Source: Flavobacterium sp. 9
GTDB taxonomy: Bacteria; Bacteroidota; Bacteroidia; Flavobacteriales; Flavobacteriaceae
DNA length: 64,000 nucleotides
Direction: 5' to 3'
Assembly (NCBI RefSeq): GCF_002754195.1
Contig: NZ_PEEU01000001.1
Coordinates: 62,001-126,000, forward strand
Numbering within the stretch: position 1 is the first letter of the stretch; each line of letters begins with the position of its first letter. Both the position numbers and the translations under genes were made by a program. Shown piece after piece: positions 7,477 through 52,427 of the stretch. Below the pieces are notes generated by a model. That model was given only the letters and a program-made list of their open reading frames with translations, ran no database searches and was not told the origin of the DNA.

Positions 7477-8976
7477 TTATTCCAAAATAAACCATTGCTT
7501 AACATCTTCGGCAATTGTTTCTTGGTTTATAATACTTTCGAACTCATTGTTTGTTGGATTGTATTTATAAACTTCCTGCCATTGTTTATAGTAAAAAGTT
7601 ATTTTTTGGATGGCATCACAAATAAATAAAAGTTCATCGTTGGTCATTGTTGGATGCAAAGAAATACGAACCCAACCTGGTTTATTGCTTAAGTTTTTCT
7701 GAAGAAGTTCTTTTGTTATTTCTGCAGATTCTTCCCGATTAATACCAAATAAATAATGCGCATACGTACTCGCACAAGACCAACCGCCACGAACCTGAAT
7801 TCCGAAGCGATCATTTAAAATACGGACAATTAAGTTATAATGAATGTTTTCAATATTAAAAGAAACGCATCCAATTCGTTCTGTATTTAAATCACCTAAA
7901 ATAGAAACTCCTTCTATTTTTTGAAGTTTTGAATAACATAAATCCAACAGTTCTTTTTCTCTGTTTTTCATGTTTTCGACGCCCATTTGCTCTTTCAATT
8001 CTAAGCACAAAGCCGTTCGAATTACTTGTAGAAAACCCGGAGTTCCGCCATCTTCCTTTACTTCTATTGTATCATTATAATGATATTCGCCCCACGGATT
8101 CGTACATTTTACATTTCCGCCACCGGGATTATCAGGAAAACTGGATTTGTATAATTTCTCATTAAAAACCAAAACACCGCAAGTTCCTGGTCCACCTAAA
8201 AATTTATGAGGCGAAAAGAAAATCGCATCCAATTGCGCTTCAGGATCTTCGGGATGCATATCGATTGAAACATAAGGTGCCGAAGCAGCAAAATCAACAA
8301 AACAAAAACCTCCGTTTTGATGCATGATTTTGGCTAATTCATAATACGGCGTAATAATTCCTGTAACGTTCGAACAAGCTGTAAACGAACCAATTTTTAA
8401 ACTTCGGTTTTTATATTTCTTAAGTTCTGAAGACAAGATTCTTGGATCAACCAAATTGTTTTCATCTGCGGGCAAAACCACAATATCAGCAATGGTTTCG
8501 TACCACGGAACCTGATTAGAATGATGTTCCATATGTGTAATAAAAACAACTGGTCTTTCGTCATCAAAGTGCAGTTTTACATTATAAATATTATCCTCAG
8601 AACGAAGTCCCATAATGCGTTGCAATTTTGATAAAGCAGCTGTCATTCCGGTTCCAGTCGTTACCAGACAATCTGATTCATTGGCATTTACGTGCTTTTT
8701 GATTATTGTTCGCGCGTGTTGATACGCATATGTAGATGCTTTGCCGGTTTCGCTTGAAAACGAATGCGTATTGGCAATCATCGGACCTATTTTATTGAGC
8801 ATTACCTCTTCAATTGGAAAATACAATCTTCCGCTAGCGATCCAATCTGCGTACAATATTTTCTGTTTTCCGTAAACTGATTCGAAAGAATGATTAACGC
8901 CAATTGTATTTCCTCTGAATTTAGAAAAATAATGTTCTAATTCTGTTGTCGCTGTTTTTTCTATAATAGATTCCAT
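7477..8976 (-). CDS. Class V aminotransferase-fold PLP enzyme, cysteine desulfurase-like (copy 1)
   Basis: This protein of about 499 residues belongs to the class V aminotransferase/cysteine desulfurase fold. The PLP lysine sits in SPHKFLGGPG near residue 258, with the upstream cofactor motif CFVDFAASAP. A Cys in RGGWSCAS near residue 400 falls where SufS-type desulfurases carry their catalytic Cys, supporting but not proving sulfur transfer. I start it at ATG 8976, which aligns with the paralogue at 57439-58911; an upstream TTG at 8997 is less likely. It begins 21 bases after dsbD on the same strand, so it is the last gene of the uptake operon. The paralogue shares long identical blocks. It could instead be an isopenicillin-epimerase-like or amino-acid lyase member of the fold. 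Confidence 0.87.
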   Translation of the reverse strand: MESIIEKTATTELEHYFSKFRGNTIGVNHSFESVYGKQKILYADWIASGRLYFPIEEVMLNKIGPMIANTHSFSSETGKASTYAYQHARTIIKKHVNANESDCLVTTGTGMTAALSKLQRIMGLRSEDNIYNVKLHFDDERPVVFITHMEHHSNQVPWYETIADIVVLPADENNLVDPRILSSELKKYKNRSLKIGSFTACSNVTGIITPYYELAKIMHQNGGFCFVDFAASAPYVSIDMHPEDPEAQLDAIFFSPHKFLGGPGTCGVLVFNEKLYKSSFPDNPGGGNVKCTNPWGEYHYNDTIEVKEDGGTPGFLQVIRTALCLELKEQMGVENMKNREKELLDLCYSKLQKIEGVSILGDLNTERIGCVSFNIENIHYNLIVRILNDRFGIQVRGGWSCASTYAHYLFGINREESAEITKELLQKNLSNKPGWVRISLHPTMTNDELLFICDAIQKITFYYKQWQEVYKYNPTNNEFESIINQETIAEDVKQWFILE

Positions 8977-8997
8977 GACTATTTTTTCTAAAACCAA

Positions 8998-10998
8998 TTA
9001 TGATTTGAAGTTTTTGATTCCTGTATTCAGCCAATTATAATAATCTTCGATATCAGGATTATACGCCGAAGGTTCCGTTAAGTTTACACTATTTTGGTCT
9101 ACAATTACATAAAAAGGCTGTGCGTTTGCTTTGTAGGTTTTGATTTGTAAATCGCTCCATTTATTTCCAACCGTTTTGATCTTTTTGCCTGTTGTTTCAG
9201 AAACATATTGTTCGTTTTCCGGAAGCTCATTTTTGTCGTCTACGTACAATGAAATCAAAACTACTTCATTTTTCAAAACACCTAAAACCTTTGGATCTGA
9301 CCAAACCAATTCTTCCATTTTTCTGCAATTCACGCATGCATAACCTGTAAAATCTAATAAAACTGGTTTCTTGTTTTTCTTCGCGAATTCCATTCCTTTA
9401 TTATAATCATGAAAAGTGATAATATTTTGCGGACCAAATTCAGCTCCTTCCGGTAAAGCCGACTTTACTTCGCTAACACTTTTAGAAGCGCCAAATCCGT
9501 CTGGCGATTCACTGTATTGCATTGGAGGCGCAAATCCGCTGATTAATTTTAAAGGCGCGCCCCAAAGTCCTGGAATCAAATAAATAGTAAACGATAAAAC
9601 AATTAATCCAAAACCTAATCTTCCAACTGAAATATGGTTTAAAGGAGAATCGTGCGGTAATGTTATTTTTCCGAATAAATAGAAAGCCAAAGTTCCAAAA
9701 ACGGCAATCCAAATCGTTAGAAATACTTCTCTTTCCAGCCAATGCAATTGCAAAACCAAATCAGCATTTGATAAAAATTTGAAAGCTAAAGCCAATTCCA
9801 AAAAGCCTAAAACGACTTTTACAGTATTTAGCCATCCGCCCGATTTTGGCAAAGCATTTAACCAACCCGGAAATGCAGCAAACAATGAAAATGGCAATGC
9901 AATTGCAGTCGAAAATCCTAACATTCCAACAATTGGCGCGATACCTCCTTTTGAAGCTGCTTCGACTAATAATGTTCCAACAATTGGACCCGTACAAGAG
10001 AATGAAACAATGGCTAAAGCCAAAGCCATAAAGAAAATCCCGACTAATCCTCCTCTATCCGCTTGCGAATCGACTTTATTGGCCAATGCATTTGGCAGCA
10101 TGATTTCGAAAGCGCCCAAAAAAGAAACTGCAAAAACAACCAATAAAATAAAGAATATAAGATTGAACCAAACATTCGTTGAAAGCGCGTTCAGAGAATC
10201 GGCACCAAAAACAGCTGTTACAATTGAACCCAATAAAACATAAATAATGATGATCGAAAATCCGTAAATCAAAGCGTTTCTAATTCCTGCCGCTTTGGTT
10301 TTGCTTTGTTTGGTAAAATAACTAACCGTCATCGGAATCATCGGAAAAACACAAGGCGTTAATAAAGCTGCAAATCCCGATAAAAAGGCAATAACAAAAA
10401 TGCTTATTAATCCTCTTGTATCTTTCTTTTTAGTTGGATTTTCAATTTGTGTTTCTGCTTTTTCTGTTGCTTTAACCGTCGTTTTTTCTTCAGCAACAGC
10501 TGAATCTTTTACAATTGCTATTTCTTCGGCGGAAGCCAACTTTTTAGAATTCGGAATTTTAAAAGACAATTCTTCTGATGACGGCGGTAAACAATTACTG
10601 TCGTCACAAACCATAAATCCAACTTCGGCTGCAATGTTTGTAATTTGATCTGATTTGAATTTTATTTTCTGCGTAAAAAGCGCTTTATCTTCAAAATATT
10701 TAATTTTCATATTGAAGATTTTATCCACGACTTCATGTCCTTTTCCTTCGGTAGTTTTGCCTGTTAATTCAAAGTTATTCTTTGGATTTTTAAACGAAAA
10801 AGCTGTCGCCGATGGTCCACCTTCTTCGATATATTGTCCGTACAAATGCCAACCGGACTGAATCGCAGCTTCGGCTTTTAAAACATATTCTTTATCTGAT
10901 ATTTTTTCTACAGAAGTAGTCCATTTTACCGGATTGTACATTTGTCCAAACATATTGCAACTCACAAGCAATAGTAAGGTTATGATGAATTTTTTCAT
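8998..10998 (-). CDS. dsbD: Thiol:disulfide interchange protein DsbD
   Basis: This 666-residue protein has the three DsbD parts. A signal peptide precedes a periplasmic alpha domain with the Cys pair in VCDDSNC (near residue 130). A membrane part of about eight helices (195-490) carries the redox cysteines in TPCVFPM and FSCTGPIVG. A C-terminal thioredoxin domain has the CVNC site (near residue 555, in YACVNCRKMEE). DsbD carries electrons from cytoplasmic thioredoxin across the inner membrane to periplasmic reductases. The two TlpA-type proteins encoded upstream in the same direction are natural partners. The PLP enzyme follows at 21 bases. A hairpin terminator ends about 36 bases upstream of its start codon. 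Confidence 0.95.
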   Translation of the reverse strand: MKKFIITLLLLVSCNMFGQMYNPVKWTTSVEKISDKEYVLKAEAAIQSGWHLYGQYIEEGGPSATAFSFKNPKNNFELTGKTTEGKGHEVVDKIFNMKIKYFEDKALFTQKIKFKSDQITNIAAEVGFMVCDDSNCLPPSSEELSFKIPNSKKLASAEEIAIVKDSAVAEEKTTVKATEKAETQIENPTKKKDTRGLISIFVIAFLSGFAALLTPCVFPMIPMTVSYFTKQSKTKAAGIRNALIYGFSIIIIYVLLGSIVTAVFGADSLNALSTNVWFNLIFFILLVVFAVSFLGAFEIMLPNALANKVDSQADRGGLVGIFFMALALAIVSFSCTGPIVGTLLVEAASKGGIAPIVGMLGFSTAIALPFSLFAAFPGWLNALPKSGGWLNTVKVVLGFLELALAFKFLSNADLVLQLHWLEREVFLTIWIAVFGTLAFYLFGKITLPHDSPLNHISVGRLGFGLIVLSFTIYLIPGLWGAPLKLISGFAPPMQYSESPDGFGASKSVSEVKSALPEGAEFGPQNIITFHDYNKGMEFAKKNKKPVLLDFTGYACVNCRKMEELVWSDPKVLGVLKNEVVLISLYVDDKNELPENEQYVSETTGKKIKTVGNKWSDLQIKTYKANAQPFYVIVDQNSVNLTEPSAYNPDIEDYYNWLNTGIKNFKS

Positions 10999-11034
10999 TG
11001 TTTTTTTGTTTTGATATTTTAAGTTTGATTTAAA

Positions 11035-11063
11035 AAAAGAGCTGTCGGCAAAACAGCTCTTTT
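11035..11063 (-). terminator. Rho-independent terminator just upstream of dsbD
   Basis: Stem AAAAGAGCTGT/ACAGCTCTTTT (11035-11045 with 11053-11063), 7-base loop, followed on the minus strand by a T run. It would end transcripts arriving from the M16 peptidase gene, or act as an attenuator in the dsbD leader: only 36 bases separate it from the dsbD start. Confidence 0.75.
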
Positions 11064-11137
11064 GGGTCTTTCACAAAAAATTGCTTACTAATTCAGATTT
11101 AAAAATGAAAGACAACTATTAAAATTGTTTTTTTTTG

Positions 11138-11228
11138 TTTCAGGTTTCAGGTTTCAGGTTTCAGGTTTCAGGTTTCAGGTTTCAGGTTTCAGGTTTCAGG
11201 TTTCAGGTTTCAGGTTTCAGGTTTCAGG
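11138..11228. repeat. Tandem array of 13 perfect TTTCAGG heptamers
   Basis: Bases 11138-11228 are exactly 91 bases, made of 13 uninterrupted copies of the 7-base unit TTTCAGG. The array lies in the 339-base gap between the M16 peptidase stop and the dsbD start. Such perfect arrays change length by slippage. No reading frame uses it. The remaining gap bases hold the terminator at 11035 and the palindrome at 11243. Confidence 0.97.
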
Positions 11229-11242
11229 TTTTGGATTGCGAT

Positions 11243-11275
11243 AACTTTGTCAAAGTTTAAAACTTTGACAAAGTT
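11243..11275. repeat. 33-base palindrome, copy 1
   Basis: AACTTTGTCAAAGTT and its reverse complement are separated by three bases. An identical 33-base copy lies at 14169-14201, so the two flank the M16 peptidase gene. It can fold into a hairpin on either strand and may cap the 3' ends of transcripts. Confidence 0.92.
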
Positions 11276-11337
11276 GAATCACAATCTTGCTTCTAGTATC
11301 TTTATTCTTTATTCTAACTTCTTCCTCCTAAAAAAAA

Positions 11338-14133
11338 TTACTTCAAAGGATTCCCTTCTTTATCTAATGAACCAGCTTTTATAACAATCATTTTGTCTAG
11401 CTGAACATACTTTTTGATCGCGTCGTTTACTTGTTTCAACGTTACTTTTTCGATATCTTTTGGATATTGGTCGATGTAACTTGGCTCTAAACCTCTTTCT
11501 ATAAAGCCTAAAATTGTTCTCGTCATTCCGTTTGTGGTTGCCATTCCAACTTTAAAACTTCCAATTAAATTGGTTTTCTTATTTTCTAACTCTTCCAAAG
11601 TAATTCCGTCGTTTACCCATTTTTTCACCTGAACTATTGTTGCGTCCAGTCCTTTTTGGAATAAAGTTGGATTAAAAGATGCATTTACCATCCAATATCC
11701 GCCAGTTGCAATATTTCCACCTGTTCCAGATGAAATGTTGTACGTTAAACCGTCATTATCTCGAACTGTTTGCATCAAACGACCAGCAAAACCAGCGCCT
11801 AAAGTATAATTACCAATGTAAAACGGAATATAATCTGCATCGGTTCTTTTTAAACCTGTATATTGTCCAATGTACAATTCGGCGCTTGGTTTCTCCGGAA
11901 TTGTAATAACTTCTGTTTTTGAATTTGCTTTTACAGCTTCTTCAAACTTCATATTTTCAATTACACCGCCGTTCCAGTTTTTGAAAGATTTATTTAATGA
12001 AGTGTTCAAATTAGCGCCTTCAGTATCGCCAACAATCACCAAATGCATTGAAGCTGGACCGAAATATTTTTTGTGGAATGCTTTTACTTCTTCCAAAGTT
12101 GCCTTTTTTACATTCGCTAAATCTTCTTCAACGCTTAAATCATGATTCGGATTTGCTTTTGGATAAATCGCCTGAGTTAATGCAATACTTCCTCTTTCTC
12201 CCGGATCATTCAGATTTTGCTGAATACTTCCGGTAAATTGTTGCTTTAAATTTTCAAATTCTTTGGCATCAAATAATGGGTTTCTTAATTCTTCAGCCAA
12301 TAAAGTAATGACTTGATCTAAATCTTTTTTCAGACATTTAAAACCAATATTTACTTTAGTTGTAGAAGCATTTACGTTGATATTTACACCTAATTTTTGG
12401 AGTTTTTCTGAGAATTTAAATTTGTCATTCAACGTTGTTCCTTTTGACAACATTGAAGCTGTTAAAGACGGAATTGCCAGATTTTTGTTTTCATTGGCAT
12501 AATTTCCTAGCGAAATACTTGCTGCAACGGTCACAAAATCTTTAGCCGAAGTTTTTACTGAAACGACATCAATTCCGGCTACTTTTTCTCTTTTGTAAGC
12601 CGAAGCTGTTTTTTCAATTGCATTATTATCTTCTAAAGTAAGTAGTTTTGTAATATTTTTTTCTTCAGATAAATGAACTTCAGAAGCTTCTTTATGATCG
12701 TGTCCATTTTCTGGATGTCTGTAATAAAACGGTCCATTCTCTGGCATAAAATTATTGGCTTGCGCCGATTCCTGATTTTGACCTCCATTTTGCTTCGGAA
12801 CAAAATATCCTGTTGTGCTTTGATCTTCAACCAGATATTTTTTAGCAACACGCAAAACATCTGTTGGCGTTACTTTTTTCAATCGGTCAACTCCTGTAAT
12901 ATAGTCTGTCCAATCTCCCGCTGCAATGGCTTCGTTTAATTGTGAAGCGATTACGCCAGAACCATCACGAGCCAAAATAGTTTGCGCGCTGATATTGGCG
13001 ACAACACGATTTACCTCTTCCTGCGTAACGCCATGTTTCTGAATTTTGGCTACAACTTCACTAATTTTAGCATCGATATCTTCGTGCTTTGAAGTCGTCG
13101 GAAAACCAACTCCAATAGTAAAAAGTCCTACTTCTTTGAAATTTGTTGCGCTTGAATATGTGTAAATTCCTAAACGCGTGTCTACAAAAGTTTTGTTTAA
13201 AATAGCCGATGGACCCGATCCAATAATTTCAGCAAGAATATTCAAAGCAGGTAAATCTTCGTGTAAAGCTCCCGGAATTTTATAAGCTTTGTTTATAACG
13301 CCTAATTCGCCGGGTTTTTTAACTACAATTTTGCGAGGTCCATATTGTTGCGGTTCTTCGGTATATGGCTGAGGCATTGCGTTTGGTGCTTTTGTAATTT
13401 TACCGAAATACTGTTCGATTAAATCAAAAACATTCTCTTTTTTGAAATCGCCAATAATAGTCAAAGTTGCATTATCCGGCCAATAATAAGTGTTGTAGAA
13501 ATTACGTAATACTTCAATTGGTGCTTTTTCGATATCTGATTTCCATCCAATTGTAGAATGATGATACGGATGTGCAATATAAGCCGCTGCCCAAATTTCT
13601 TTGTCTAATAAACTATTTGGATCGTTTTCTCCGCGTTCGAATTCGTTGCGAACAACTGTCATTTCAGCATCTTTATCTTCTTTCAATAATAAAGAATTAC
13701 GCATTCTGTCGGCTTCAATTTGCAATGCCAATGCGATTTTATCACTCGGTAATGTTTCAAAATAATTGGTTCTGTCATACCAAGTCGTTGCGTTAAGTTG
13801 CGCTCCCGTATTTTGAAGAACATCTGTAATTGTTGTTCCATTTTTCTTATTGAAACTTGGCGTACCCTTGAACATTAAATGTTCTAAAAGATGCGTTGAT
13901 CCTGTGTTTCCTAAAACTTCGTTTTTAGAACCAACACGATACACAATTTGCACGGTTGCAACTGGCGAAGCATTGTCTTGCAAGAGTAAAACATTCATAC
14001 CGTTTGGTTGATACAAATACTCTTCAATTCCACCTAATTCTTTGATTTTCTTAAAATTAACTGATTTATTTTGCGCTGAAATAAGCGTACAGAAAGCTAG
14101 TGAGCAATAGCCCACGAAGATGTGTTTTTTCAT
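11338..14133 (-). CDS. M16 family zinc metallopeptidase, two-repeat (insulinase/pitrilysin type)
   Basis: This 931-residue protein has a signal peptide (residues 1-20) and the inverted zinc motif HxxEH as HLLEH at 81-85. The third ligand is probably a Glu in RNEFERGEND about 75 residues on. A second M16-like half follows from about residue 510 without a zinc motif, the standard active/inactive pairing. These enzymes form a closed chamber and cut peptides, not folded proteins. Secreted to the periplasm or outer membrane, it would degrade imported peptides. It lies between the TlpA genes and dsbD, all on the minus strand, and is flanked by two identical palindromes. Confidence 0.94.
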   Translation of the reverse strand: MKKHIFVGYCSLAFCTLISAQNKSVNFKKIKELGGIEEYLYQPNGMNVLLLQDNASPVATVQIVYRVGSKNEVLGNTGSTHLLEHLMFKGTPSFNKKNGTTITDVLQNTGAQLNATTWYDRTNYFETLPSDKIALALQIEADRMRNSLLLKEDKDAEMTVVRNEFERGENDPNSLLDKEIWAAAYIAHPYHHSTIGWKSDIEKAPIEVLRNFYNTYYWPDNATLTIIGDFKKENVFDLIEQYFGKITKAPNAMPQPYTEEPQQYGPRKIVVKKPGELGVINKAYKIPGALHEDLPALNILAEIIGSGPSAILNKTFVDTRLGIYTYSSATNFKEVGLFTIGVGFPTTSKHEDIDAKISEVVAKIQKHGVTQEEVNRVVANISAQTILARDGSGVIASQLNEAIAAGDWTDYITGVDRLKKVTPTDVLRVAKKYLVEDQSTTGYFVPKQNGGQNQESAQANNFMPENGPFYYRHPENGHDHKEASEVHLSEEKNITKLLTLEDNNAIEKTASAYKREKVAGIDVVSVKTSAKDFVTVAASISLGNYANENKNLAIPSLTASMLSKGTTLNDKFKFSEKLQKLGVNINVNASTTKVNIGFKCLKKDLDQVITLLAEELRNPLFDAKEFENLKQQFTGSIQQNLNDPGERGSIALTQAIYPKANPNHDLSVEEDLANVKKATLEEVKAFHKKYFGPASMHLVIVGDTEGANLNTSLNKSFKNWNGGVIENMKFEEAVKANSKTEVITIPEKPSAELYIGQYTGLKRTDADYIPFYIGNYTLGAGFAGRLMQTVRDNDGLTYNISSGTGGNIATGGYWMVNASFNPTLFQKGLDATIVQVKKWVNDGITLEELENKKTNLIGSFKVGMATTNGMTRTILGFIERGLEPSYIDQYPKDIEKVTLKQVNDAIKKYVQLDKMIVIKAGSLDKEGNPLK

Positions 14134-14168
14134 TTTTTGTGATTGAGATGTTTTTTTTAGCGTGAAGT

Positions 14169-14201
14169 AACTTTGTCAAAGTTTAAAACTTTGACAAAGT
14201 T
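14169..14201. repeat. 33-base palindrome, copy 2
   Basis: Identical to 11243-11275. It lies in the 87-base gap between the TlpA-like gene stop (14221) and the M16 peptidase start (14133), so transcripts crossing the operon would contain it as an internal hairpin. Confidence 0.92.
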
Positions 14202-14220
14202 TGACTGCTAATTTTATTGT

Positions 14221-15354
14221 TTATGACTTACTAAAAATCTCTTTTAGTTTAGACTGAAGTGCTTCTTCTCTTAGATTTTTAGCTACTATTTTTCCGTCAG
14301 GTCCAATTAAGTAATTGGTTGGAACTAGTTTTACTCCGTATAAAACGGCAACATCATTTTTCCATCCTTTTAGGTCAGAAACGTGTGTCCAGCTTAAGCC
14401 ATCTTTTTCGATTGCTTTTTGCCAAAGATTCTTTTTATCGTCTAATGAAACGCCTAAAACTTCAAATCCTTTATCGTGATATGCTTTGTAAGCTACGACT
14501 ACGTTTGGATTTTCTTTTCGGCATGGACCGCACCAACTTGCCCAGAAATCAACCAAAACGTACTTTCCTTTATAATCTGATAGTTTTACCACTTTTCCGT
14601 TTACATCTGTTTGAGAAAATTCCGGAGCAGCAACGCCAACAGCGGTTTTATCGTTAAGTGCAATTCCTTCTTTTATTTTTTTACCGAAATAAGATTTCTG
14701 AACTTCAGGGCTTAAAACTGCAAAATATTCTTTTACTTGTTCCGGAGTTCCGTATGTTACCAAACGATCGTCAAGAACTAAAGCTCCGGCAATCTGATCT
14801 TTATGAGATTTAATAAATTTAAAAGTAAGATCATCTGCCAACTTTTGTAAATCTGCCCAACGTTTGTCCATCATTGCTTTTTGCTCCGGAGTTAGTTTTA
14901 CTTTTCCGCTTTGACTTATAGAATCAGATGTTTTGTAAACCGGACCTGCAATTTTCTGGATCTTTGTAAATTCGTTTTTGTAATAAGACATATAAATCGA
15001 ATCCTGAATCGCTCCAGTTAATTTTGCATTAAAAATACTGTCTTTATGACCAACAAGATTTATAGTTTCATTTGATAAAACAAAAACTCTTCCAAATTCC
15101 TGCCCTTTTAATTTGATGCTGTATCTTAAAGGTTCGTCTACCTTTCCTGCAAAAGTAAATTTGCCGTCTACGATTTTAGCAGAATCTTTTACAACATTTT
15201 TATCTCCATCCTGAAATTCCAGATAGACCATTCCGTCTTTTTGTCCGGCAATATTTCCGTTTATTGTAAATCCTTCTTCTTTCTTAGAACAAGAACTAAT
15301 TGTGGCTGTTAGCGCTAAGGCTAACAAACCTGATTTTAAGATTGTACTTTTCAT
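14221..15354 (-). CDS. TlpA-like thiol:disulfide oxidoreductase lipoprotein with DUF4369 domain
   Basis: This 377-residue lipoprotein has a lipobox ending at Cys22 (TISSCSKKEE). Residues 25-125 form a beta-rich DUF4369-type domain, followed by a helical linker and a C-terminal AhpC/TSA-type thioredoxin fold with the redox motif WCGPC in DFWASWCGPCRKENP. A conserved cis-Pro region (KLVPTNYLIG) follows. The protein should sit on the periplasmic face of a membrane and reduce or isomerise disulfides, with electrons from DsbD encoded downstream. It is closely similar to the proteins at 15549 and 59249. Confidence 0.93.
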   Translation of the reverse strand: MKSTILKSGLLALALTATISSCSKKEEGFTINGNIAGQKDGMVYLEFQDGDKNVVKDSAKIVDGKFTFAGKVDEPLRYSIKLKGQEFGRVFVLSNETINLVGHKDSIFNAKLTGAIQDSIYMSYYKNEFTKIQKIAGPVYKTSDSISQSGKVKLTPEQKAMMDKRWADLQKLADDLTFKFIKSHKDQIAGALVLDDRLVTYGTPEQVKEYFAVLSPEVQKSYFGKKIKEGIALNDKTAVGVAAPEFSQTDVNGKVVKLSDYKGKYVLVDFWASWCGPCRKENPNVVVAYKAYHDKGFEVLGVSLDDKKNLWQKAIEKDGLSWTHVSDLKGWKNDVAVLYGVKLVPTNYLIGPDGKIVAKNLREEALQSKLKEIFSKS

Positions 15355-15411
15355 GTTTGATATTTTTTTTATTTTAAGAATGTTTTTGTCTGAATTTTTA
15401 ACACATAGAGC

Positions 15412-15475
15412 AATGTCATTAAGTTAAGATTTTTAGAAAATAAAATTAATCTCGCAAAGGCGCTAAGACGCCAAG
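15412..15475. repeat. Dispersed intergenic repeat (ATTAAGTTAAG / CTCGCAAAG type)
   Basis: Bases 15412-15459 are nearly identical to 39593-39639, differing by about two bases near AAGATTTTTAG versus AAGCTTTTAG. Both end in CTCGCAAAG, joining the CGCAAAG family. It fills the gap between the two TlpA-like genes. Confidence 0.8.
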
Positions 15476-15548
15476 TTTAAACAAACGTAGCTGTGTGACT
15501 ATTTTGATTTTTAATTTTTAATTCTCAATTTTTAATTGAAACTGACAA

Positions 15549-16748
15549 TTATGATTTCAAAAGTTCTTTTAATTTGGCTTCTAATTCTGCACCTCTTAAA
15601 TTATCACCAATAATTACACCTTTGCTATCTACTAAATAGGTTGCCGGAATTGCTTTTACATTAAATGCATTACTTACTTTATTGTCATCCAGAAGATTGT
15701 GCCATTGCATATTTTCTTGTGCTAAAGCTTTTTGCCATGCTTTTTCGTCTTTATCAATTGAAATACTTAAAATTTCAAATCCTTTTCCTGCATATTCTGA
15801 ATAAGCTGTTTTTAAATTTGGAATTTCTTTACGACATGGTCCGCACCAAGATGCCCAAAAATCAATCAGAATGTATTTTTTTCCTGCAACGATATCTTTT
15901 ACATTATAGGCTTTTCCGTCTTTGTCTTTTAGACCGAAGTTGGCAACGCTTGTTCCGATTAATGACTTTGGGTTAAGATCTTTATCTACCAATTGACCAT
16001 AATAACTTTTCTTTGCTGCGGGAGAAAATTGCTCATAAATTGGCTTTTGATCCGGTGTGAAATAACTGTATTGTGTGATCATAAAAAATGGTCCCCACCA
16101 AGTTGCTTTATTTCTTGTAATTAAATCTGCTGTTGTTGTTTCGACTTTCTTAAAAAATGCTTTTTCTTTTGCTTCGAAAGATTTCCATGCTGGAGAATTT
16201 CCAATAGAATCCATCAGTTTTTTGTTTCCTGAAACTCTTGCTTTTCCGTATGCTTCTGCAACTTCTTCGCTTCCTTTATGATATTCTTCGTAATCTTTGT
16301 TTAATTCTTCTCTAAAAGCTGTTTCTTTTTTAAAATAATCGTTCGATTTTGATCCTGAAACGACTTCATTTTTAAAATTGATTTTTCCTTCTTCTTGTTT
16401 TAAAACTTCGGCTTCAGCTGTTAGTTTTATTTTAGAATTTTCTATTAATACCGGAATGTATCCTTTGTTTTTTCCAAACTCCAAATAAAATAAACGAGGT
16501 TCATTTAATTTTCCTGTAAAGGTAAATTTGCCGTCTTTAAGCGTAGTTTCTGCAACTGCAGATTCTGATGAATGTGTTGCTCCGGGAATTAATTTTATGG
16601 TCGTTCCATCTTCAAGTCCTGTTATATTTCCTTCCAGATTATAAGAGGTTGATGCAACTGCTGGCTTTTTCTTTTGCGCTAGAATATTGTTGGAAAATGC
16701 AAATAAACAGATGCATAATCCAATTACTTTAAATTTAATTGTATTCAT
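15549..16748 (-). CDS. TlpA-like thiol:disulfide oxidoreductase with DUF4369 domain
   Basis: This 399-residue exported protein has a signal peptide ending near residue 25 (NNILAQ) with no lipobox, so it is probably soluble in the periplasm. A DUF4369-like domain occupies about residues 35-130, then a long charged helical region, and the C-terminal thioredoxin fold has WCGPC in DFWASWCGPCRKEIP and the cis-Pro segment KAIPATYLVD. It lies between susD and the second TlpA-like gene, same strand, which suggests redox treatment of the imported substrate. One of three such proteins in the window. Confidence 0.93.
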   Translation of the reverse strand: MNTIKFKVIGLCICLFAFSNNILAQKKKPAVASTSYNLEGNITGLEDGTTIKLIPGATHSSESAVAETTLKDGKFTFTGKLNEPRLFYLEFGKNKGYIPVLIENSKIKLTAEAEVLKQEEGKINFKNEVVSGSKSNDYFKKETAFREELNKDYEEYHKGSEEVAEAYGKARVSGNKKLMDSIGNSPAWKSFEAKEKAFFKKVETTTADLITRNKATWWGPFFMITQYSYFTPDQKPIYEQFSPAAKKSYYGQLVDKDLNPKSLIGTSVANFGLKDKDGKAYNVKDIVAGKKYILIDFWASWCGPCRKEIPNLKTAYSEYAGKGFEILSISIDKDEKAWQKALAQENMQWHNLLDDNKVSNAFNVKAIPATYLVDSKGVIIGDNLRGAELEAKLKELLKS

Positions 16749-16769
16749 TTTTGATTGATATTTTAAGTA

Positions 16770-16806
16770 AAAGCTTCCTTTTCGAAAGTCCTAATCAGGA
16801 AGCTTT
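16770..16806 (-). terminator. Hairpin after susD
   Basis: Ten-base stem AAAGCTTCCT/AGGAAGCTTT (16770-16779 with 16797-16806) with a 17-base loop, eight bases beyond the susD stop codon and followed on the minus strand by TTTTACTT. It could be a partial terminator or a stabilising 3' hairpin that sets susCD above the downstream genes in expression. Confidence 0.6.
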
Positions 16807-16813
16807 AAAGTTT

Positions 16814-18220
16814 TTATTTTGCTACATTTTGAGTTATAGTTCCGTTTCCAGGATTTTTTACAGCTCCTTGAGGAAATGGCATTGTCCATAAATGAGAATC
16901 CGGTGCTAATGTGTAGTTTACTCCACCAGAAGTTTTTGATAAACTTAATTTATAAGTACCTTCTGCATTTAGACGACGTGCATCTGCAAAAGGAATAATC
17001 GTCAGGATAAGTTCGTTATACTTCGTTTTGAAAATAGCGTTTAGGGCAACTGTTTTATCTGCAGTTACAATATCCTGATAAGCAGCTGGTTCAATACGAG
17101 TTTTACGTACTTTATTTAAAACGTCCAACGCATCGCTAATTTGTCCTGCACGAGCCAGACATTCTGCTTTAATTAAATATACTTCTACAGTTGTGATTCC
17201 GCCATAATTAAACATTCCTGATAAAGTTCTTCTGTAATAAGTATCTGCACCAACTGTTCTTAATTTCCAACGAGATTTAAAGCGAACATCTCCAGCTTCA
17301 AAACGTTGCGCACGTTCTACGGGAATACTATATTCTGTAGATAAATAGGTTCTTTCGCCATGACGAAATGTGTAATTCTCAACATAGTCAAATCCCATTG
17401 GAGATGGCGTCGCAGTATAAGAATTCGGAATGTCAATAATCGCTTTATTAGCATTATAATAAGCAACCCAATCGTACAGTTTATTATTTTCGGCAAGAGC
17501 CAAATCAGCGTATTTCAAGGCTTCTGTATAATTATTCATTTGCAAATAAACGCGGGAATAAAATGCATAACCTGCTCCTAAATTTGGATGCAAAGCGGTT
17601 TGAGAAACTTTTGGTAAATATGGCAATGCATCTTTTACATCTGCCAAAATAAAATCGTACAATTCCTGAATAGTTACTTGTTTACTTGGCGCATTTATAT
17701 CGGCACTTGTAATTAATGGCACAGATAATTTTGTTTTTGCAGTTGAAGCCACATAAGTATCTGCATAAAAATTAACTAAGTTATAATATGACATTGCACG
17801 TAGAATTTTTGCTTCTGCCCAAATTACTCTTTTTTGATCTTCTGTTGCTTCTGTTGTTGTTAAAGCATTTGCGATAATCAAGTTAAAGGTCGAAATTCCA
17901 GCATATTGTCCGTAATATTGTCTTTCGTCTGCTTGATTTAACTGGATACGATCTGCAGTTTCATCCCACATATAGTTGGCTTTTGTCAAACGTTGCGCTG
18001 CCAGAGTCGCTATATCGATAAACTTATCGTTCAACAAAGTCGAAGCTTGTGCAATATCTACGCTTTGGTTGGTGTATTCATCACGAATAAAAGCTTCATA
18101 ATCTGCCAATGTTGTTGGAATTTTAGATCCTTTTGGCGCATCGTCTAAATAGTTGGAGCAAGATGCTAAAACTAATCCTAGTGCTAAAATGCAAAGTATA
18201 TTTTTATATATATTTTTCAT
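16814..18220 (-). CDS. SusD/RagB-family outer-membrane lipoprotein
   Basis: This 468-residue lipoprotein has its lipid attachment site at Cys21 (VLASCSNYLDD). The N-terminal SusD-like part contains typical TPR-type helices (AEAKILRAMSYYNLVNFYAD, SRVYLQMNNYTEALKYAD). The C-terminal SusD_RagB part has the YLIKAECLARAGQ helix and ends with a typical MPFPQ motif. SusD proteins form the lid over a SusC barrel and bind the substrate outside the cell. The gene follows susC by 17 bases. Slightly short for the family. Its substrate could be peptide or glycan; the neighbouring peptidase and thioredoxins favour peptide. Confidence 0.95.
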   Translation of the reverse strand: MKNIYKNILCILALGLVLASCSNYLDDAPKGSKIPTTLADYEAFIRDEYTNQSVDIAQASTLLNDKFIDIATLAAQRLTKANYMWDETADRIQLNQADERQYYGQYAGISTFNLIIANALTTTEATEDQKRVIWAEAKILRAMSYYNLVNFYADTYVASTAKTKLSVPLITSADINAPSKQVTIQELYDFILADVKDALPYLPKVSQTALHPNLGAGYAFYSRVYLQMNNYTEALKYADLALAENNKLYDWVAYYNANKAIIDIPNSYTATPSPMGFDYVENYTFRHGERTYLSTEYSIPVERAQRFEAGDVRFKSRWKLRTVGADTYYRRTLSGMFNYGGITTVEVYLIKAECLARAGQISDALDVLNKVRKTRIEPAAYQDIVTADKTVALNAIFKTKYNELILTIIPFADARRLNAEGTYKLSLSKTSGGVNYTLAPDSHLWTMPFPQGAVKNPGNGTITQNVAK

Positions 18221-18237
18221 AGTGTAGTTTTTTAAAA

Positions 18238-21200
18238 TTAGAAGTTAATGTTTACACCAAAAACTAAACTTGGAGATTGAAAGCCATTTAAAAGAAATTT
18301 AGCGTCTCTGCTTTTAGCGAAAGTATAGACATTTTCTGCATTCAGATTGAAGCGAACATCTTGTAATTTTACTCTTTTTATAATAGACGAAGGCAAATTA
18401 TAGGCTAGAGAAATATTGCTTAATCTGATATTTGAAGCATCAAGAATATTAATATCTGCATAACGATAAATGTCACGAGAATCTGTAGCAAAATCGGCTT
18501 CGTACTCGTAAACCGCGCGAGGAATATTGGTAAAAGCTTCGTCGCCTGGTTTTTGCCAACGGTTTTCGATATTTTTATTTACAGTTGTAATATCTGTTAC
18601 ATAACTACCAATTCCAGCCGAATAATTATTCTCTAACATTGGTAAAAATGTATTTCTGATTTTATGCCCTAACTCATAAATAAACAATGCCGAAAGTGAA
18701 AAATTCTTATAGTTTACAGCCGTATGAAATGATCCGCTGTGTGTAGGAACAGTTGAGCCATAATCATGAATTGCATTTAAATCTGCGGGATTGTAAATTG
18801 CTTTTTCACCTTTTGCATTATAAACCTGAGGCAAACCTTTATCATTTAAACCTGCCCATTTGTAACCGTAAATAGTGTTGTAATTGTTGCCAACTTTAGG
18901 ATAAGCAGATGGATAATCTAATTGAAGGTAATATACCGGAGCTTCGACTTTTACGTAATCGACTTTGTTTTTATTGTAAGCATATAAAACTGAAGCATCC
19001 CAAGAGAAAGAATCTGTTTTTACGATTGTTCCTCTCAAAGTGGTTTCAATACCTTTGTTTGTCATTTCTCCATTGTTAATTTTATAGGTCGAATAACCAA
19101 ATCCTTCTGTTGGGATTCCGTTACTGTTTGCTAATAAATCTTGTCCTTTTTTGTTGTAAACATCAAAAGTTCCGCTTAATCTATTTTTAAAGAATGAAAA
19201 ATCTACACCAATATTCGTTGTTGTTGTTTTTTCCCAAGACAATTCAGGATTTGGTCTTTGGTTAACATATCCTTGATTTCCGCCAACATTTGGGTTTGCA
19301 TAATAAGAAGCTGTTAAATAAGGCGCTGCATCTTTGGCAACATTTCCTCCAATACCATATGAAGCACGAAGTTTAAGAGAGTTTATCCAATCGACTGCAA
19401 AGAATGATTCTTTATCAATATTCCACGCTGCTCCTGTAGACCAAGTTGGTTTATTTTGATATTTATTATTTGTTCCCCAAAGGTTAGAACGATCCCAACG
19501 CAAACTTCCGGTTAAAGAATATTTTTTATCATAAGTATAACCTCCTGTTGTATAGAAAGAAACGTAACGATTTACCAATTCACGATCTGCTGCGAAATCA
19601 TTTAATCCCATAGAACCTCCAAAAACAGACCCGTAAACTTTAAGTAAATCTGCCTGATTAATTGGTGTGTACGATAAAGTTTGCTCGTCCCAACCGTAAC
19701 GTGTTTTATCTCCGTATTCTATTTTTGAATGGCGGATTTCCATACCTGCAATTGCGGTTACATCGTGTACATTATTAAAAGTCTGATCAAAATTCAATTG
19801 CTGACGGAAATTGTAAGCATTAGAAAATTGGTTGGTTTCTTTTAAGATATCGCCATAAGGCAAATTATAAACGGCTTTGTTATTACCATCAATAGTTACT
19901 AAACCATTTACTTCATTTCTAACATTAAAAGATTCTTTTTCTCTTAATAAACTGCCACGATCAACTCCATATTCGTACTGAAACATTGCATTATATGTAA
20001 GTGCTTTACTGAATTTTACATTAAACTTTGCAAAAGTTCTGTTCAGGAAGTTTTTAGTTTCATTTACATTTCGCCCTAATTCATCCATTGGCGTAATATC
20101 CATATTATAAAGACCGTAAGTCTTCATGGATTGAAGCGTAAAATTATTGTATCGTGATGCTGCTGTAGAAGTAAAATTTGATCCGTCGTCATTTACCAAT
20201 TGGTTGTACATCTGAGTCTTATAATCTTGCTGAGTTAGAGGATTATAAGTTTGTGTATTGCTTTCGCCATAATTGATATAGGTTCCTAAATCTAAAGTCA
20301 ACCAGCTTGTAATATCAGTAGAGTTTTTTAGATTTAAACCAACAGATTGATTATCAGAATATCTATCTTCAAATTTGTTTCCTTTATAAGTCAACGAAGC
20401 ATTAAATGTGTTTGATTCTGTTGCTTTGCCTAAACTTACGTTATGCTGAATAAAATATTGATCGCGTTTTGCATATTTCGCAACATCATCATAATATTTA
20501 TAACCTTGAGAACCCAATTGAGTCAAACGATTATTCATATCTGTTTGCGAAATATTTCCGGCATAACCGTTTAACAAAGTCTGCATTCCCTGACTAGTAA
20601 ATACGGCATTGTTCAATAAAGATTGTGCGTACGTACTTGCATTTGCGCCTTTTAAACTTGGATTTGCATCTGCCCAGCCTTTTTCAAGACTTATAATATC
20701 GCCTGCGTCCGTAAGATTTCCGGTGTAATTTCTATATGGAGTTACGGTTAAATTGCTTGAAAACGAAATATTAGTTTTTCCGGCTTTGGCTTTTTTAGTA
20801 GTAATTACAACAACTCCATTTGCTGCACGTGCACCATAAATAGACGAAGCTGCTGCATCCTTTAGAACTGTAATAGTTTCAATATCTTCTAAATTCAGAT
20901 TCGGAAGATTTTCTTCCAGACCAAAATTCTCCGTAAATTTTGTGTTTTCTATCGGAAAACCGTCAATTACATACAATGGAGTCGTTAAACCATTCATAGT
21001 CGTTGTTCCACGAATTTTACCGTCCTGATAACCAACGATACGTCCTTCTAAAATTTTGTTTAAACTGCTCAAACGCTGTTCTTGAAAATCTTTTGCTTTT
21101 AAACTAGAGAAAGATCCAGTCGCTTGTTCAGATGAAATATTTTGATAACCTGTAGTCAATACAACTTCGCCTAATTCAAGTGTATCTTCTTTAAGGACAA

Positions 21201-21816
21201 CATTAATAACGCTTCTTCCGGCAACTTTAATTTCCTGTCTCACAAATCCTAAATAAGCAAATGCTAAAGTAGTTTCCTTTCCTACAGTAATAATCTGATA
21301 TTCACCATTAAAGTCAGTCTGAACACCGTTTCCAGAACCATTATCGGAAACTGCTGCACCAGCCAAAGGATTCCCTTTTTCGTCTGTAACTTTACCTTTT
21401 ACAATAAAATCTTCGGCTGCTTTTTGTACTGTAACAGCTTTTTCTGCAGGAGCTTTTTTAGGTGTTAAAATAATATGAGTTCCTGAAATTTTAAAATCAG
21501 TTCCTGTATTATTAAAAATTGTACCCAGAATCGCTTCAATAGATACATCATTGAGACTGACATCTATTTTGCGCTCTAAATCAACTGATCTTACATTATA
21601 AACAAATCTGTAATTTGTGGTGTACTCAATCTTTTCAATTATTTTTCCAACGGTCATGTCGCTGGCATTAAATGACATTTTTGCCTTTTGGGAATAAGTA
21701 ACTCCCGCCTGCATCACTGTCAAAGTGGTCAATAAAAATAATGTAGTCAATTTCATCTTCAAATCAAATTTCAAAAAAGGCTTGTCGAACCTGATTTTGT
21801 TCAATAGTTTTTTCAT
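18238..21816 (-). CDS. SusC/RagA-type TonB-dependent outer-membrane importer with STN domain
   Basis: This 1192-residue receptor has a signal region (an alternative start is the Met at residue 21), then an STN domain (about 50-115) that transmits signal to FecR. A carboxypeptidase-like domain (about 138-210, GKVTDEKGNPLAGAAVSDN) is followed by the plug with the SusC signature LYVIDGFPIEN, and a beta barrel ending in a C-terminal aromatic strand (LVFGVNINF). The STN domain, the FecR gene upstream and the ECF sigma factor mark a receptor that senses its own substrate. It is the import channel for the SusD lid encoded next. A hairpin lies in its leader. Confidence 0.96.
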   Translation of the reverse strand: MKKLLNKIRFDKPFLKFDLKMKLTTLFLLTTLTVMQAGVTYSQKAKMSFNASDMTVGKIIEKIEYTTNYRFVYNVRSVDLERKIDVSLNDVSIEAILGTIFNNTGTDFKISGTHIILTPKKAPAEKAVTVQKAAEDFIVKGKVTDEKGNPLAGAAVSDNGSGNGVQTDFNGEYQIITVGKETTLAFAYLGFVRQEIKVAGRSVINVVLKEDTLELGEVVLTTGYQNISSEQATGSFSSLKAKDFQEQRLSSLNKILEGRIVGYQDGKIRGTTTMNGLTTPLYVIDGFPIENTKFTENFGLEENLPNLNLEDIETITVLKDAAASSIYGARAANGVVVITTKKAKAGKTNISFSSNLTVTPYRNYTGNLTDAGDIISLEKGWADANPSLKGANASTYAQSLLNNAVFTSQGMQTLLNGYAGNISQTDMNNRLTQLGSQGYKYYDDVAKYAKRDQYFIQHNVSLGKATESNTFNASLTYKGNKFEDRYSDNQSVGLNLKNSTDITSWLTLDLGTYINYGESNTQTYNPLTQQDYKTQMYNQLVNDDGSNFTSTAASRYNNFTLQSMKTYGLYNMDITPMDELGRNVNETKNFLNRTFAKFNVKFSKALTYNAMFQYEYGVDRGSLLREKESFNVRNEVNGLVTIDGNNKAVYNLPYGDILKETNQFSNAYNFRQQLNFDQTFNNVHDVTAIAGMEIRHSKIEYGDKTRYGWDEQTLSYTPINQADLLKVYGSVFGGSMGLNDFAADRELVNRYVSFYTTGGYTYDKKYSLTGSLRWDRSNLWGTNNKYQNKPTWSTGAAWNIDKESFFAVDWINSLKLRASYGIGGNVAKDAAPYLTASYYANPNVGGNQGYVNQRPNPELSWEKTTTTNIGVDFSFFKNRLSGTFDVYNKKGQDLLANSNGIPTEGFGYSTYKINNGEMTNKGIETTLRGTIVKTDSFSWDASVLYAYNKNKVDYVKVEAPVYYLQLDYPSAYPKVGNNYNTIYGYKWAGLNDKGLPQVYNAKGEKAIYNPADLNAIHDYGSTVPTHSGSFHTAVNYKNFSLSALFIYELGHKIRNTFLPMLENNYSAGIGSYVTDITTVNKNIENRWQKPGDEAFTNIPRAVYEYEADFATDSRDIYRYADINILDASNIRLSNISLAYNLPSSIIKRVKLQDVRFNLNAENVYTFAKSRDAKFLLNGFQSPSLVFGVNINF

Positions 21817-21870
21817 ACTTTTAAATGTTTTTAATTGTGGTTGGTTAGTTTACCGATCGCATCTTATCCT

Positions 21871-21905
21871 ACCGGAAAATGTTGGCGCATTTTCCGGTTT
21901 TTTTT
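21871..21905 (+). terminator. Plus-strand intrinsic terminator inside the susC leader
   Basis: Stem ACCGGAAAATG/CATTTTCCGGT (21871-21881 with 21888-21898), six-base loop, then a run of T on the plus strand. Both flanking genes are on the minus strand. It would therefore either terminate an antisense RNA covering the susC start, or simply form a hairpin in the susC 5' leader about 55 bases upstream of the start codon. Confidence 0.7.
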
Positions 21906-22095
21906 ATAAAATAACGATCCATTTTTCGTGGAACTTTTTGTTACATAGGCTTCTTTTTTATTTTAGATTTATGATTTTAGATTCCTTGTTATTTCATCTT
22001 AATTCTTAATTATAAACTTTAGTCTACAAAATATAATCTTGCTTCTTGTTTCTATAATCTATTCTTTTTATTCTATACTCTATTCTCTTTCCAGG

Positions 22096-23247
22096 CTACT
22101 TTATAGTAATCACATCTTCATCAATCTTATAATCAATGGCATAACTGTCACTAAAATATTTCAGTACAACTTCGATAGGTTCATTATCAAAACGGGCGTT
22201 GAAAATTTCTTTACCCAGTTTTTTGTTTTTATTGATGAAAGTCACATTATAATGACGTTCTAACTTTTTAATAATTGACTCAAAAGAAGCGTTTTTAAAT
22301 ACTAAACTTCCTTGTACCCAAGCCGTATAATAATCAGTATTGACACTTTCTGTCGTGATTTTCTGTTGTCCGCGTGTGTTTGAGCCTTTTAATCCCGGAG
22401 TCAGATACACTTGATTTTCGGTTGTCTTTTTGTCTTTATAAAGCGAAACTTTTCCTTCGACCAAAACTACATCTGTACTTACATCTTCAGTATACGAATT
22501 GACGTTGAACTTAGTTCCTAAAACTTCAACATCAACTTCTTGCGTATTTACGATAAACGGATGCGCTTTGTCTTTTGCAACTTCAAAATATGCTTCACCG
22601 GTTAAATAAACTTGTCGGTTTTGATTCTTTAAAAACTGAACTGGATATCGCAATGATGTTCCGGCATTTAAATGAATCACTGTTCCGTCTGATAATTGAA
22701 CTTCGAACTTTTTCCCGTACGGAATTTTCAATGTATTGTAAACCAGTTTTCCATTATAAGAAGTATTAGAATATACTAATCTGTTTTTTTCTTGTTTTCC
22801 AATTATTCTACCTTCTTTATCCGTTAAATTTTTTGATTCTGATGTATCAATTGTTTCTGATGATTCATTTTCTGATTGAAGTACAATTTCATCTTGTCTC
22901 GGAACTACAACATTTCCTTTCGAATGAAATAAATTTGAATTCTTATAGAAATAGAAACATCCTAAAGCTACAATCAAAATAGCTGCATATTTGTAATAAG
23001 ATGAAAATCTTCTTTTCTGAAAAACATTATTTTCTTTCTGAATTCTTTCTGATAATTGTTTTCTCACTTCAGTTGAATCAAAAGTATTTACAACAGAATC
23101 TATTGCATAATTGGTTTTTACAAAATCCTTAAATACAATTTGATTCTCTTCTTCCTTAAGCCATTCCGTCAAGGTTTCTATTTCTTCCTGACTGGCTTGA
23201 TTCGTGATGAATTTCACGATTAATCGCTCTGACTTTTTCACTGTCAT
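22096..23247 (-). CDS. FecR-family anti-sigma/sigma regulator
   Basis: About 383 residues, started at the Met at 23247 because it opens the usual cytoplasmic domain (VKKSERLIVKFITNQAS); a start at 23286 is possible. A single membrane helix lies near residues 90-105 (YAAILIVALGCFYFY). The periplasmic FecR domain contains LSDGTVIHLNAGTSLRYP and KAHPFIVNTQEVDVEVLGT, and a C-terminal DUF4974-type domain contacts the STN domain. It binds and controls the ECF sigma factor encoded divergently at 23539, and receives the signal from the SusC receptor encoded downstream. Confidence 0.95.
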   Translation of the reverse strand: MTVKKSERLIVKFITNQASQEEIETLTEWLKEEENQIVFKDFVKTNYAIDSVVNTFDSTEVRKQLSERIQKENNVFQKRRFSSYYKYAAILIVALGCFYFYKNSNLFHSKGNVVVPRQDEIVLQSENESSETIDTSESKNLTDKEGRIIGKQEKNRLVYSNTSYNGKLVYNTLKIPYGKKFEVQLSDGTVIHLNAGTSLRYPVQFLKNQNRQVYLTGEAYFEVAKDKAHPFIVNTQEVDVEVLGTKFNVNSYTEDVSTDVVLVEGKVSLYKDKKTTENQVYLTPGLKGSNTRGQQKITTESVNTDYYTAWVQGSLVFKNASFESIIKKLERHYNVTFINKNKKLGKEIFNARFDNEPIEVVLKYFSDSYAIDYKIDEDVITIK

Positions 23248-23525
23248 TTTACTCTTTTTAAATATTATTACGAAGCTAAAAAACAAAACCCTAACAATTT
23301 GATAATCTTTTTTTCATTTTAGTGATTTTTTTATTATTTGAAGTCTTTTTCTTTCAATATAAATTTTTAAAAACTCTATTAATCACATAGAATTAATAAA
23401 CAATTTAATATACCTTTGCATTTTCAAGTGATTTTCTATTTGTAATAAAATTCAATAGAAAATAGAAAAACGCAATGTTTTTGGCAAAAAAACTATCGTT
23501 TTGGGTCATAAAAATTATAAATTTA

Positions 23526-23533
23526 TATATTTG
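23526..23533 (+). promoter_or_regulatory. -7 promoter box TATATTTG of the ECF sigma gene
   Basis: TATATTTG fits the TAnnTTTG consensus, with TTTTG at 23499-23503 as a possible -33 element (spacing 22, a little long). The box ends five bases before the sigma start codon, which predicts a leaderless or nearly leaderless mRNA. Confidence 0.55.
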
Positions 23534-23538
23534 TTTCT

Positions 23539-24144
23539 ATGAAAAGCGAAGATTACAACGATAACGATATATTAATCGAATCTCTAAAAAACGGAGACGA
23601 GAAAGCATATACTTATTTGATCGACACGTATCATCACAAACTTTGTGTTTATGCCAATAGTCTGGTAAAAAATGTTTACAGTGCCGAAGATATCGTGCAA
23701 AATGTATTTATAAAAGTTTGGGAACAACGTACTCGCTTAAAAACAAATCATGCAATTAAGAGCTTTCTTTATAAATTAGTTTACAATGAGTTTATTGATT
23801 TGTATCGAAAAAATCAGTCTTTATTTTCATTAGAAAAATCATATTACGACGCCTTAAATTCAATTGTTCTGGAAGATGATTCAGAATCTTTGCAACATGT
23901 TATAAATGTCGTTAATAAAGAAATTCAAAACCTTCCGCCAAAATGCAAAGAAGTTTTTATTCTGAGCAAAAAAGAAGGTTTAACCAATATTGAAATTGCA
24001 GAACATCTTGACGTTTCGATCAAAACTGTTGAAGCTCAAATAACCAAAGCGTTTTCGATTTTACGATCTTCGCTTGACGAGAAAATAAAAAACTTCTTGT
24101 TTTTACTGTTCTCCATAAAGAAAAATTTACGCTTAAATACTTAA
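23539..24144 (+). CDS. ECF RNA polymerase sigma factor (sigma-70 family, FecI-like)
   Basis: This 201-residue protein has region 2 (YTYLIDTYHHKLCVYANSLV, AEDIVQNVFIKVWEQR) and region 4 with the HTH (LTNIEIAEHLDVSIKTVEAQ), the Bacteroidota ECF pattern. It is divergent from FecR at 22096-23247, which should hold it inactive until the SusC STN domain signals that substrate is bound. Its likely target is the susC promoter. It is probably translated from a leaderless message. The C-terminal tail (SIKKNLRLNT) is basic and hydrophobic, as is common in this group. Confidence 0.95.
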   Translation: MKSEDYNDNDILIESLKNGDEKAYTYLIDTYHHKLCVYANSLVKNVYSAEDIVQNVFIKVWEQRTRLKTNHAIKSFLYKLVYNEFIDLYRKNQSLFSLEKSYYDALNSIVLEDDSESLQHVINVVNKEIQNLPPKCKEVFILSKKEGLTNIEIAEHLDVSIKTVEAQITKAFSILRSSLDEKIKNFLFLLFSIKKNLRLNT

Positions 24145-52369: not shown

Positions 52370-52427
52370 GATTTCCACTTCTATCGGGGCTAGGTCAATC
52401 ATTTTTCATAACAATATTTTCGTTTAG

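Follow-up and report, generated by a model that had tools for sequence, protein, structure and literature searches.

A SusCD locus with thiol-disulfide proteins and a peptidase in Flavobacterium sp. 9: a candidate peptide-import cassette with a conserved RNA before dsbD

What does a SusC-SusD pair import when the genes behind it encode thiol-disulfide proteins and a peptidase? SusCD systems are by default read as sugar importers. The question is raised by a locus at 7477-24144 of a 64,000-nucleotide (nt) stretch of Flavobacterium sp. 9 DNA, here called the window (positions 62001-126000 of a genome that is a single contig of 6.33 Mb), where susC and susD are followed by genes for two TlpA-like proteins, an M16 peptidase, DsbD and a class V pyridoxal phosphate (PLP) enzyme. 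Import of a peptide or protein together with thiol reduction is the reading best supported by sequence comparison, and we put the chance that the locus serves to import proteins or peptides, with a reducing arm of its own, at about even. If an arm for reducing disulfides and cutting peptides is built into a SusCD system, the SusCD diet would be broader, with substrates that growth experiments can test, and soil flavobacteria would gain a route to protein sulfur.

Gene content and conserved order

A sequence-only reading of the locus had proposed nine genes, from the sigma factor gene to the PLP enzyme gene, in this order and with all but the first on one strand. Pfam and NCBIfam searches recovered every one of them with the named domains, listed here together with a structured RNA:

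23539-24144, plus strand: extracytoplasmic function (ECF) sigma factor, TIGR02985 above cut-off, divergent from the FecR gene
22096-23247, minus strand: FecR-type anti-sigma factor, FecR and FecR_C domains, ATG start taken at 23247
18238-21816, minus strand: SusC-type TonB-dependent channel with STN signalling domain (Pfam/NCBIfam), best solved matches 8ypu/8ypt
16814-18220, minus strand: SusD-type lipoprotein lid, SusD-like_3
15549-16748, minus strand: TlpA-like thiol-disulfide protein 1, DUF4369 and TlpA domains, CGPC motif
14221-15354, minus strand: TlpA-like thiol-disulfide protein 2, DUF4369 and TlpA domains, CGPC motif, lipoprotein-like start
11338-14133, minus strand: two-half M16 peptidase, signal peptide-like start, HLLEH zinc motif at residue 81 in the first half
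11033-11114, minus strand: conserved structured RNA with stem P1, a UGAAUUAGUAAGC loop, a terminator-like hairpin and a U run; its end lies 34 nt upstream of dsbD
8998-10998, minus strand: DsbD with N domain, membrane domain and thioredoxin domain, CDDSNC and CVNC motifs
7477-8976, minus strand: class V PLP enzyme, SufS-like, subfamily A, RGGWSCA motif, ATG at 8976

The channel exceeded the cut-offs of TIGR04056 (557.7 against 368.25 bits) and TIGR04057 (59.2 against 46.2 bits). SusD, encoded 17 nt from susC, scored 116.5 bits with SusD-like_3 and also matched the SusD fold. The three DsbD domains (PF11412 for the N domain, PF02683 for DsbD_TM and PF13899 for the C-terminal thioredoxin) were all above cut-off; the protein remained below the cut-off of NCBI PRK00293 (147.2 vs 330 bits). 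From their first residues, SusD and TlpA 2 read as lipoproteins and the M16 enzyme as a secreted protein, which would place the peptidase in the periplasm. The M16 enzyme matched PqqL (6ofs) with an E value of 1.8e-12, but shorter single-half M16 chains outscored 6ofs. The PLP gene had been listed from a TTG at 8997, which is probably not the true start. A 12-pair hairpin, terminator-like for the plus strand, lies ahead of susC at 21871-21898.

Conservation was followed in 63 loci from other genomes with an M16 relative (L009-L071), which were fetched with peptides of the cassette M16 over 10 kb and are thus near relatives by construction; nearly all named loci retrieved by the M16 protein are from Flavobacterium. 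The sequence-only reading had suggested looking for the gene set in other genomes of the genus, and its order is indeed kept there: sigma factor, FecR, SusC, SusD, TlpA 2 and M16 occur together in 47 of the 63 loci, with TlpA 1 as well in 46 of these. Since the order recurs in so many loci, and since of the three DsbD genes found in the Flavobacterium sp. 9 genome two come immediately after an M16 gene (the third being preceded by a TilS-like gene), it is not a product of chance. DsbD was found downstream in 42 and the PLP enzyme in 26 of the 47 canonical loci, three of which are truncated at a contig end. In 24 of the 29 instances of PLP after DsbD, the two matches lie 29-53 bp apart.

The 16 non-canonical loci (M16 identity 59-86%) carry TlpA in 15 cases, a full DsbD in 11 and the PLP enzyme in 7. 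SusC and/or SusD were seen in 11 of them, at most 32% alike to either reference, and in some loci the importer genes may lie beyond the fetched 10 kb. The recurrence of the processing genes with divergent SusCD in these 16 loci suggests that the importer is swapped and that the processing genes are common to different importers. Four M16 loci (L046, L047, L049 and L061) have a protein of about 500 residues after a 171-residue gene; in L047 the smaller gene resembles DsbD_N, and Pfam gives no match for the larger protein.

Variants of the peptidase step were also found. A second system in the same genome (L116) encodes sigma factor, FecR, SusC, SusD, DUF4843, PKD_2, thioredoxin, aspartyl protease, TlpA, M16 and DsbD, and TlpA-containing loci can carry an aspartyl protease with M16 (L116) or M14 with S9 (L196). 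A second-type M16 locus (L195:12741-17746) holds a short DsbD-like frame, a 650-residue DsbD, a PLP enzyme and a pyridine-nucleotide disulfide reductase. M16 alone was rejected as a marker of the system, as all eight relatives outside the genus, at 43-47% identity, lacked adjacent SusCD, TlpA and DsbD by BLAST; one of the eight (L227) had a weak sigma factor match.

The PLP enzyme and its sister operon behind a riboswitch

Recovery of sulfur had been proposed from a cysteine of the PLP enzyme in the desulfurase position. This residue does align with the catalytic Cys region of SufS, in a match that covers most of the chain and includes the Schiff-base SPHK and the EHHSN motif. RGGxSCA, SPHK and EHHSN are present in 95/95 distinct homologues, the variable position of the first being W in 58 (subfamily A) and C in 37 (subfamily B). 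The cassette enzyme differs from SufS in its longer C-terminus and in scoring below the curated NCBI SufS cut-off (156.1 vs 475.1 bits), and no Suf gene was found beside it among the scanned window genes.

The window also holds a paralogue, in an operon headed by a predicted S-adenosylmethionine (SAM) riboswitch:

60518-60618, minus strand: SAM-I riboswitch ahead of the sister TlpA-PLP operon, RF00162, 79.8 bits (gathering cut-off 44.4)
59249-60241, minus strand: sister-operon TlpA-like protein, DUF4369 and TlpA domains, found in 21 of the 121 genus genomes (its own among them)
57439-58962, minus strand: PLP paralogue, 77% identical to the cassette enzyme

The sister TlpA was counted at an E value of 1e-120 or better. 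In 19 of the 21 genomes a riboswitch core lies 294-552 nt upstream of it and a PLP gene 20-297 nt downstream (riboswitches being called by core pattern in genus loci, and by Rfam in the window, L123, L124, L125 and L127); the remaining two loci read SusC-SusD-TlpA-peptidase-peptidase-PLP. The Flavobacterium sp. 9 genome has three SAM riboswitches. The second precedes an alpha/beta hydrolase gene, which we read as metX, and then an aspartokinase-like sequence; the third precedes homocysteine methyltransferase and B12-dependent methionine synthase genes. Just after the window riboswitch there is a 31-codon frame (60365-60460, minus strand), and frames of 23-32 codons starting with MK lie 81-93 nt past the riboswitch core in 19/19 riboswitch loci; 11 of these frames have FRM close to their end.

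In the draw of 121 genomes (E 1e-225), 32/32 subfamily A genes stand in a TlpA or DsbD unit: 19 in SAM-TlpA units, 10 in M16-type DsbD units (in one, L191, M16 would lie beyond the contig end), one in the second-type M16-DsbD locus (L195) and two in SusCD-TlpA-peptidase units (L196 and L197). Of 296 genomes from the phylum, 83 carry a member of the PLP family. The notion that it is always linked had to be given up, because subfamily B is mostly unlinked (17 neighbourhoods read) and a wider draw yielded an unlinked subfamily A copy (L126). The position of the sister PLP gene beside methionine control favours, by paralogy, a sulfur role for the cassette enzyme. Sulfur recovery by the latter is therefore plausible, and the riboswitch on the sister operon makes this claim directly testable.

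A structured RNA between the M16 gene and dsbD

Between the M16 gene and dsbD lies a gap of 339 nt. The RNA found there consists of a stem (GUCUUUCA/UGAAAGAC) that closes a loop with UGAAUUAGUAAGC, followed by a GC-rich hairpin and a U run. A hairpin search located a terminator-like hairpin in 41 of 43 M16-dsbD gaps; in 39 gaps it stood 21-42 nt from the end of the searched stretch, which takes in the dsbD start codon. A consensus terminator scanner did not report the hairpin, probably because its stem absorbs part of the U run.

A covariance model built from 31 copies matched 57 of the 63 M16 loci at an E value of 0.01 or better (L010, L041, L062, L065, L068 and L070 were missed), including the M16-dsbD gap in 43/43 loci with a downstream DsbD of at least 75% identity. 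Among 58 distinct copies, both-sided changes were found in 15 of 16 pairs, amounting to 60 cells vs 8.9 (sd 2.6) in shuffled alignments; these counts come from an alignment (A4) fitted to the model structure and so lean towards it. A MAFFT alignment (A2) pointed the same way, though less strongly (5 pairs vs 1.3). In the fitted alignment, sliding the partner strand lowered pairing from 96.9 to at most 60.8%. The window copy folds with a z score of -4.59, the terminator hairpin being its strongest part.

A role as a general terminator was rejected. In the whole genome the model reaches E 0.01 or better twice, each time at an M16-DsbD locus, and it gave no match up to E 1 in 18 sources of other kinds (among them other M16 genes, the third DsbD and SAM-TlpA-PLP loci). 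The second genomic copy differs in its stem letters and is identical in its loop. The short loop string is less specific: with one mismatch allowed it is found eight times in the genome, and six of these sites lie outside the two cassettes (the reversed-string control gave one). Of the three outside sites that were read, one follows an ilv/leu operon and precedes an acetyl-CoA synthetase-like gene, another adjoins a PepSY-like gene and the third lies upstream of an M1 peptidase gene; the model matched at none of them.

Across the family, 14 of 299 genomes, own included, have a match, a rough count given that matches in other genera are weak (E 6.5e-4 to 0.0099) and the search filters strict. 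Twelve of the 18 family-wide matches have M16, TlpA or a SusD-like gene within 1.5 kb; the six without may be false. Rfam 15 gave no family at gathering score for the RNA, with sub-threshold matches only. We regard the RNA as a candidate new RNA family and as a well-supported candidate regulator. A passage of PMC9723704 describes structured 5' elements without Rfam matches in F. psychrophilum, one of them before acsA.

One possibility is that the RNA, instead of regulating dsbD, is the 3' end of the SusCD-M16 transcript, perhaps released as a small RNA that pairs through its conserved loop, and we give this somewhat less than an even chance. Such a role would suit the copies behind M16 genes without any DsbD found after them (L026, L030, L043 and L232) and the loci in which the RNA is doubled (L045, L051, L052 and L195). 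However, pairing of the loop with the start regions of 11 window genes does not exceed 7 nt, on which ground a small RNA acting at these gene starts was set aside, and in four matches from other genera (L249, L250, L251 and L263) the RNA lies again between M16 and a DsbD match. Because the RNA also stands after M16 genes with no DsbD found behind them, we read it as a structured terminator that, ahead of a dsbD gene, may gate read-through; release as a 3' RNA is nearly as likely.

The same gap contains a run of 7-base AAACCTG tandem repeats (about 11137-11232). Beside it, in a region reaching to about 11279, is the palindrome ACTTTGTCAAAGTTTTAAACTTTGACAAAGT, with a second copy in the TlpA 2-M16 gap near 14185. 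Elsewhere in the window, a defence-like gene with AbiTii and SEFIR/TIR domains adjoins the cassette (25180-26301, minus strand), and a Flavo-1 RNA (RF01705, 76.1 bits) lies at 52318-52395 on the minus strand.

Function of the cassette and comparison with known systems

In the mechanism that we propose, SusC-SusD would capture an extracellular peptide or small protein. An STN domain is a feature of channels that signal via FecR, and here binding would be signalled through STN to FecR and the divergent sigma factor. In the periplasm the TlpA pair would open disulfide bonds, with DsbD supplying the electrons from the cytoplasm, and the M16 enzyme would cut the reduced chain. Transporters encoded elsewhere might then carry the fragments into the cytoplasm, and there the PLP enzyme, in loci that have it, could take sulfur from cysteine or a related compound. 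The conserved structured terminator ahead of dsbD would set or gate the amount of reducing arm. The SusCD matches, the linked peptidases and the TlpA proteins support the import and reduction of peptides put forward in the sequence-only reading, and the riboswitch of the paralogue operon lends independent support to its sulfur recovery, which is plausible. Breakdown of RiPPs or toxins, also named there, is conceivable. More tentatively, and doubtful as it still appears to us, the cassette could belong to an exchangeable flavobacterial sulfur-scavenging scheme, with varied SusCD doors that feed cysteine-rich proteins to a constant TlpA/DsbD/M16 module, a dedicated PLP enzyme that releases sulfur and is linked to the methionine regulon, and a new RNA class whose loop UUUUGAAUUAGUNA controls transcription into dsbD.

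Several observations weigh against peptide import with a dedicated reducing arm and sulfur release. The terminator-like hairpin between M16 and dsbD weakens the idea of one plain operon, as dsbD-PLP need not be simply co-transcribed with susC. The PLP enzyme is facultative in the canonical loci, and sulfur release cannot therefore be the whole purpose. The window riboswitch at 60518-60618 is the only SAM riboswitch that Rfam finds there, which rules one out on the cassette's own locus, and the core pattern found none in the 63 M16 loci. Finally, putative sugar-binding entries also match the SusD fold well, so this fold was not used as proof of ligand. An ordinary glycan locus, in which SusCD would take up an oligosaccharide and the neighbouring genes would be bystanders, would agree with these entries; no glycoside hydrolase domain was found among the cassette genes run against Pfam, and linked peptidases recur. 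We regard it as the least probable of the explanations considered.

Metal piracy of the Fus kind appears unlikely to us. In this case an intact protein carrying a metal or cofactor would be taken up, reduced and then cleaved by M16, so that iron or an Fe-S cluster is released, and the PLP enzyme would serve cluster building. A TonB-dependent channel with a periplasmic M16 enzyme is the Fus arrangement (PMC6793856, PMC6071955), and FecR-sigma control and a SufS-like enzyme would fit. However, beyond the channel and M16 the Pfam and NCBIfam searches recognised no Fus-like gene in the window cassette, and no siderophore or ferric reduction gene, and the PLP paralogue sits behind a SAM riboswitch. 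Bacteriocin traffic, with SusCD as the entry door of a peptide or protein toxin that TlpA, DsbD and M16 disarm inside, is suggested by the best solved match of the importer, ButCD with BfUbb, a ubiquitin-like antibacterial protein. Against it, no cassette gene was recognised as an immunity gene in the Pfam/NCBIfam scan and the riboswitch on the PLP paralogue suggests nutrition; we hold it to be improbable, a little less so than the glycan locus.

DsbD and TlpA proteins have roles in the maturation of cytochrome c and in stress. The TlpA, DsbD, M16 and PLP genes could accordingly be envelope redox housekeeping, answering oxidative or thiol stress beside a nutrient importer unrelated to them, and the TlpA-PLP pairs behind SAM riboswitches in 19 loci (1.5 kb flanks read) are in keeping with this. 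Yet the order with SusCD is kept in most M16 loci, other SusCD pairs occupy the same place where it is not, and the genome has another DsbD, after the TilS-like gene. Housekeeping is also unlikely, marginally more so than metal piracy, and peptide or protein import with thiol reduction is the explanation we favour.

Judging by titles and abstract starts among the matches listed (subscription journals and preprints being outside the scope), no paper deals with the cassette gene set, the SAM-TlpA-PLP unit or the RNA. Similar in arrangement are the Fus and protease-associated import systems of Pectobacterium and E. coli (YddB-PqqL), in which a TonB-dependent channel is likewise linked to a periplasmic M16 enzyme. 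The cassette differs from them in having SusC-SusD and not FusA, and in its TlpA pair, DsbD and PLP enzyme; the words SusD, thioredoxin and disulfide are absent from the main text of PMC6793856. Its channel is not of the FusA/YddB clade, as it belongs to the SusC family above cut-off and a passage of PMC6793856 separates SusC from FusA.

Within the genus, a passage of PMC9723704 proposes oligopeptide (collagen-peptide) import for a SusCD pair of F. psychrophilum (THC0290_2100/2101), a likeness in importer and in proposed cargo; that pair is named there with a collagenase and a dipeptidase, and the passage does not mention a reducing arm. Among solved structures, the RagAB peptide transporter of Porphyromonas gingivalis was a weaker match than ButCD. 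Both SusC and SusD match best to ButCD, in the BfUbb-ButCD complex (8ypt, 8ypu), although SusD is only about 23% identical to its ButCD counterpart. A ligand class shared with ButCD, suggested by this likeness, may be a useful lead to the substrate of the cassette.

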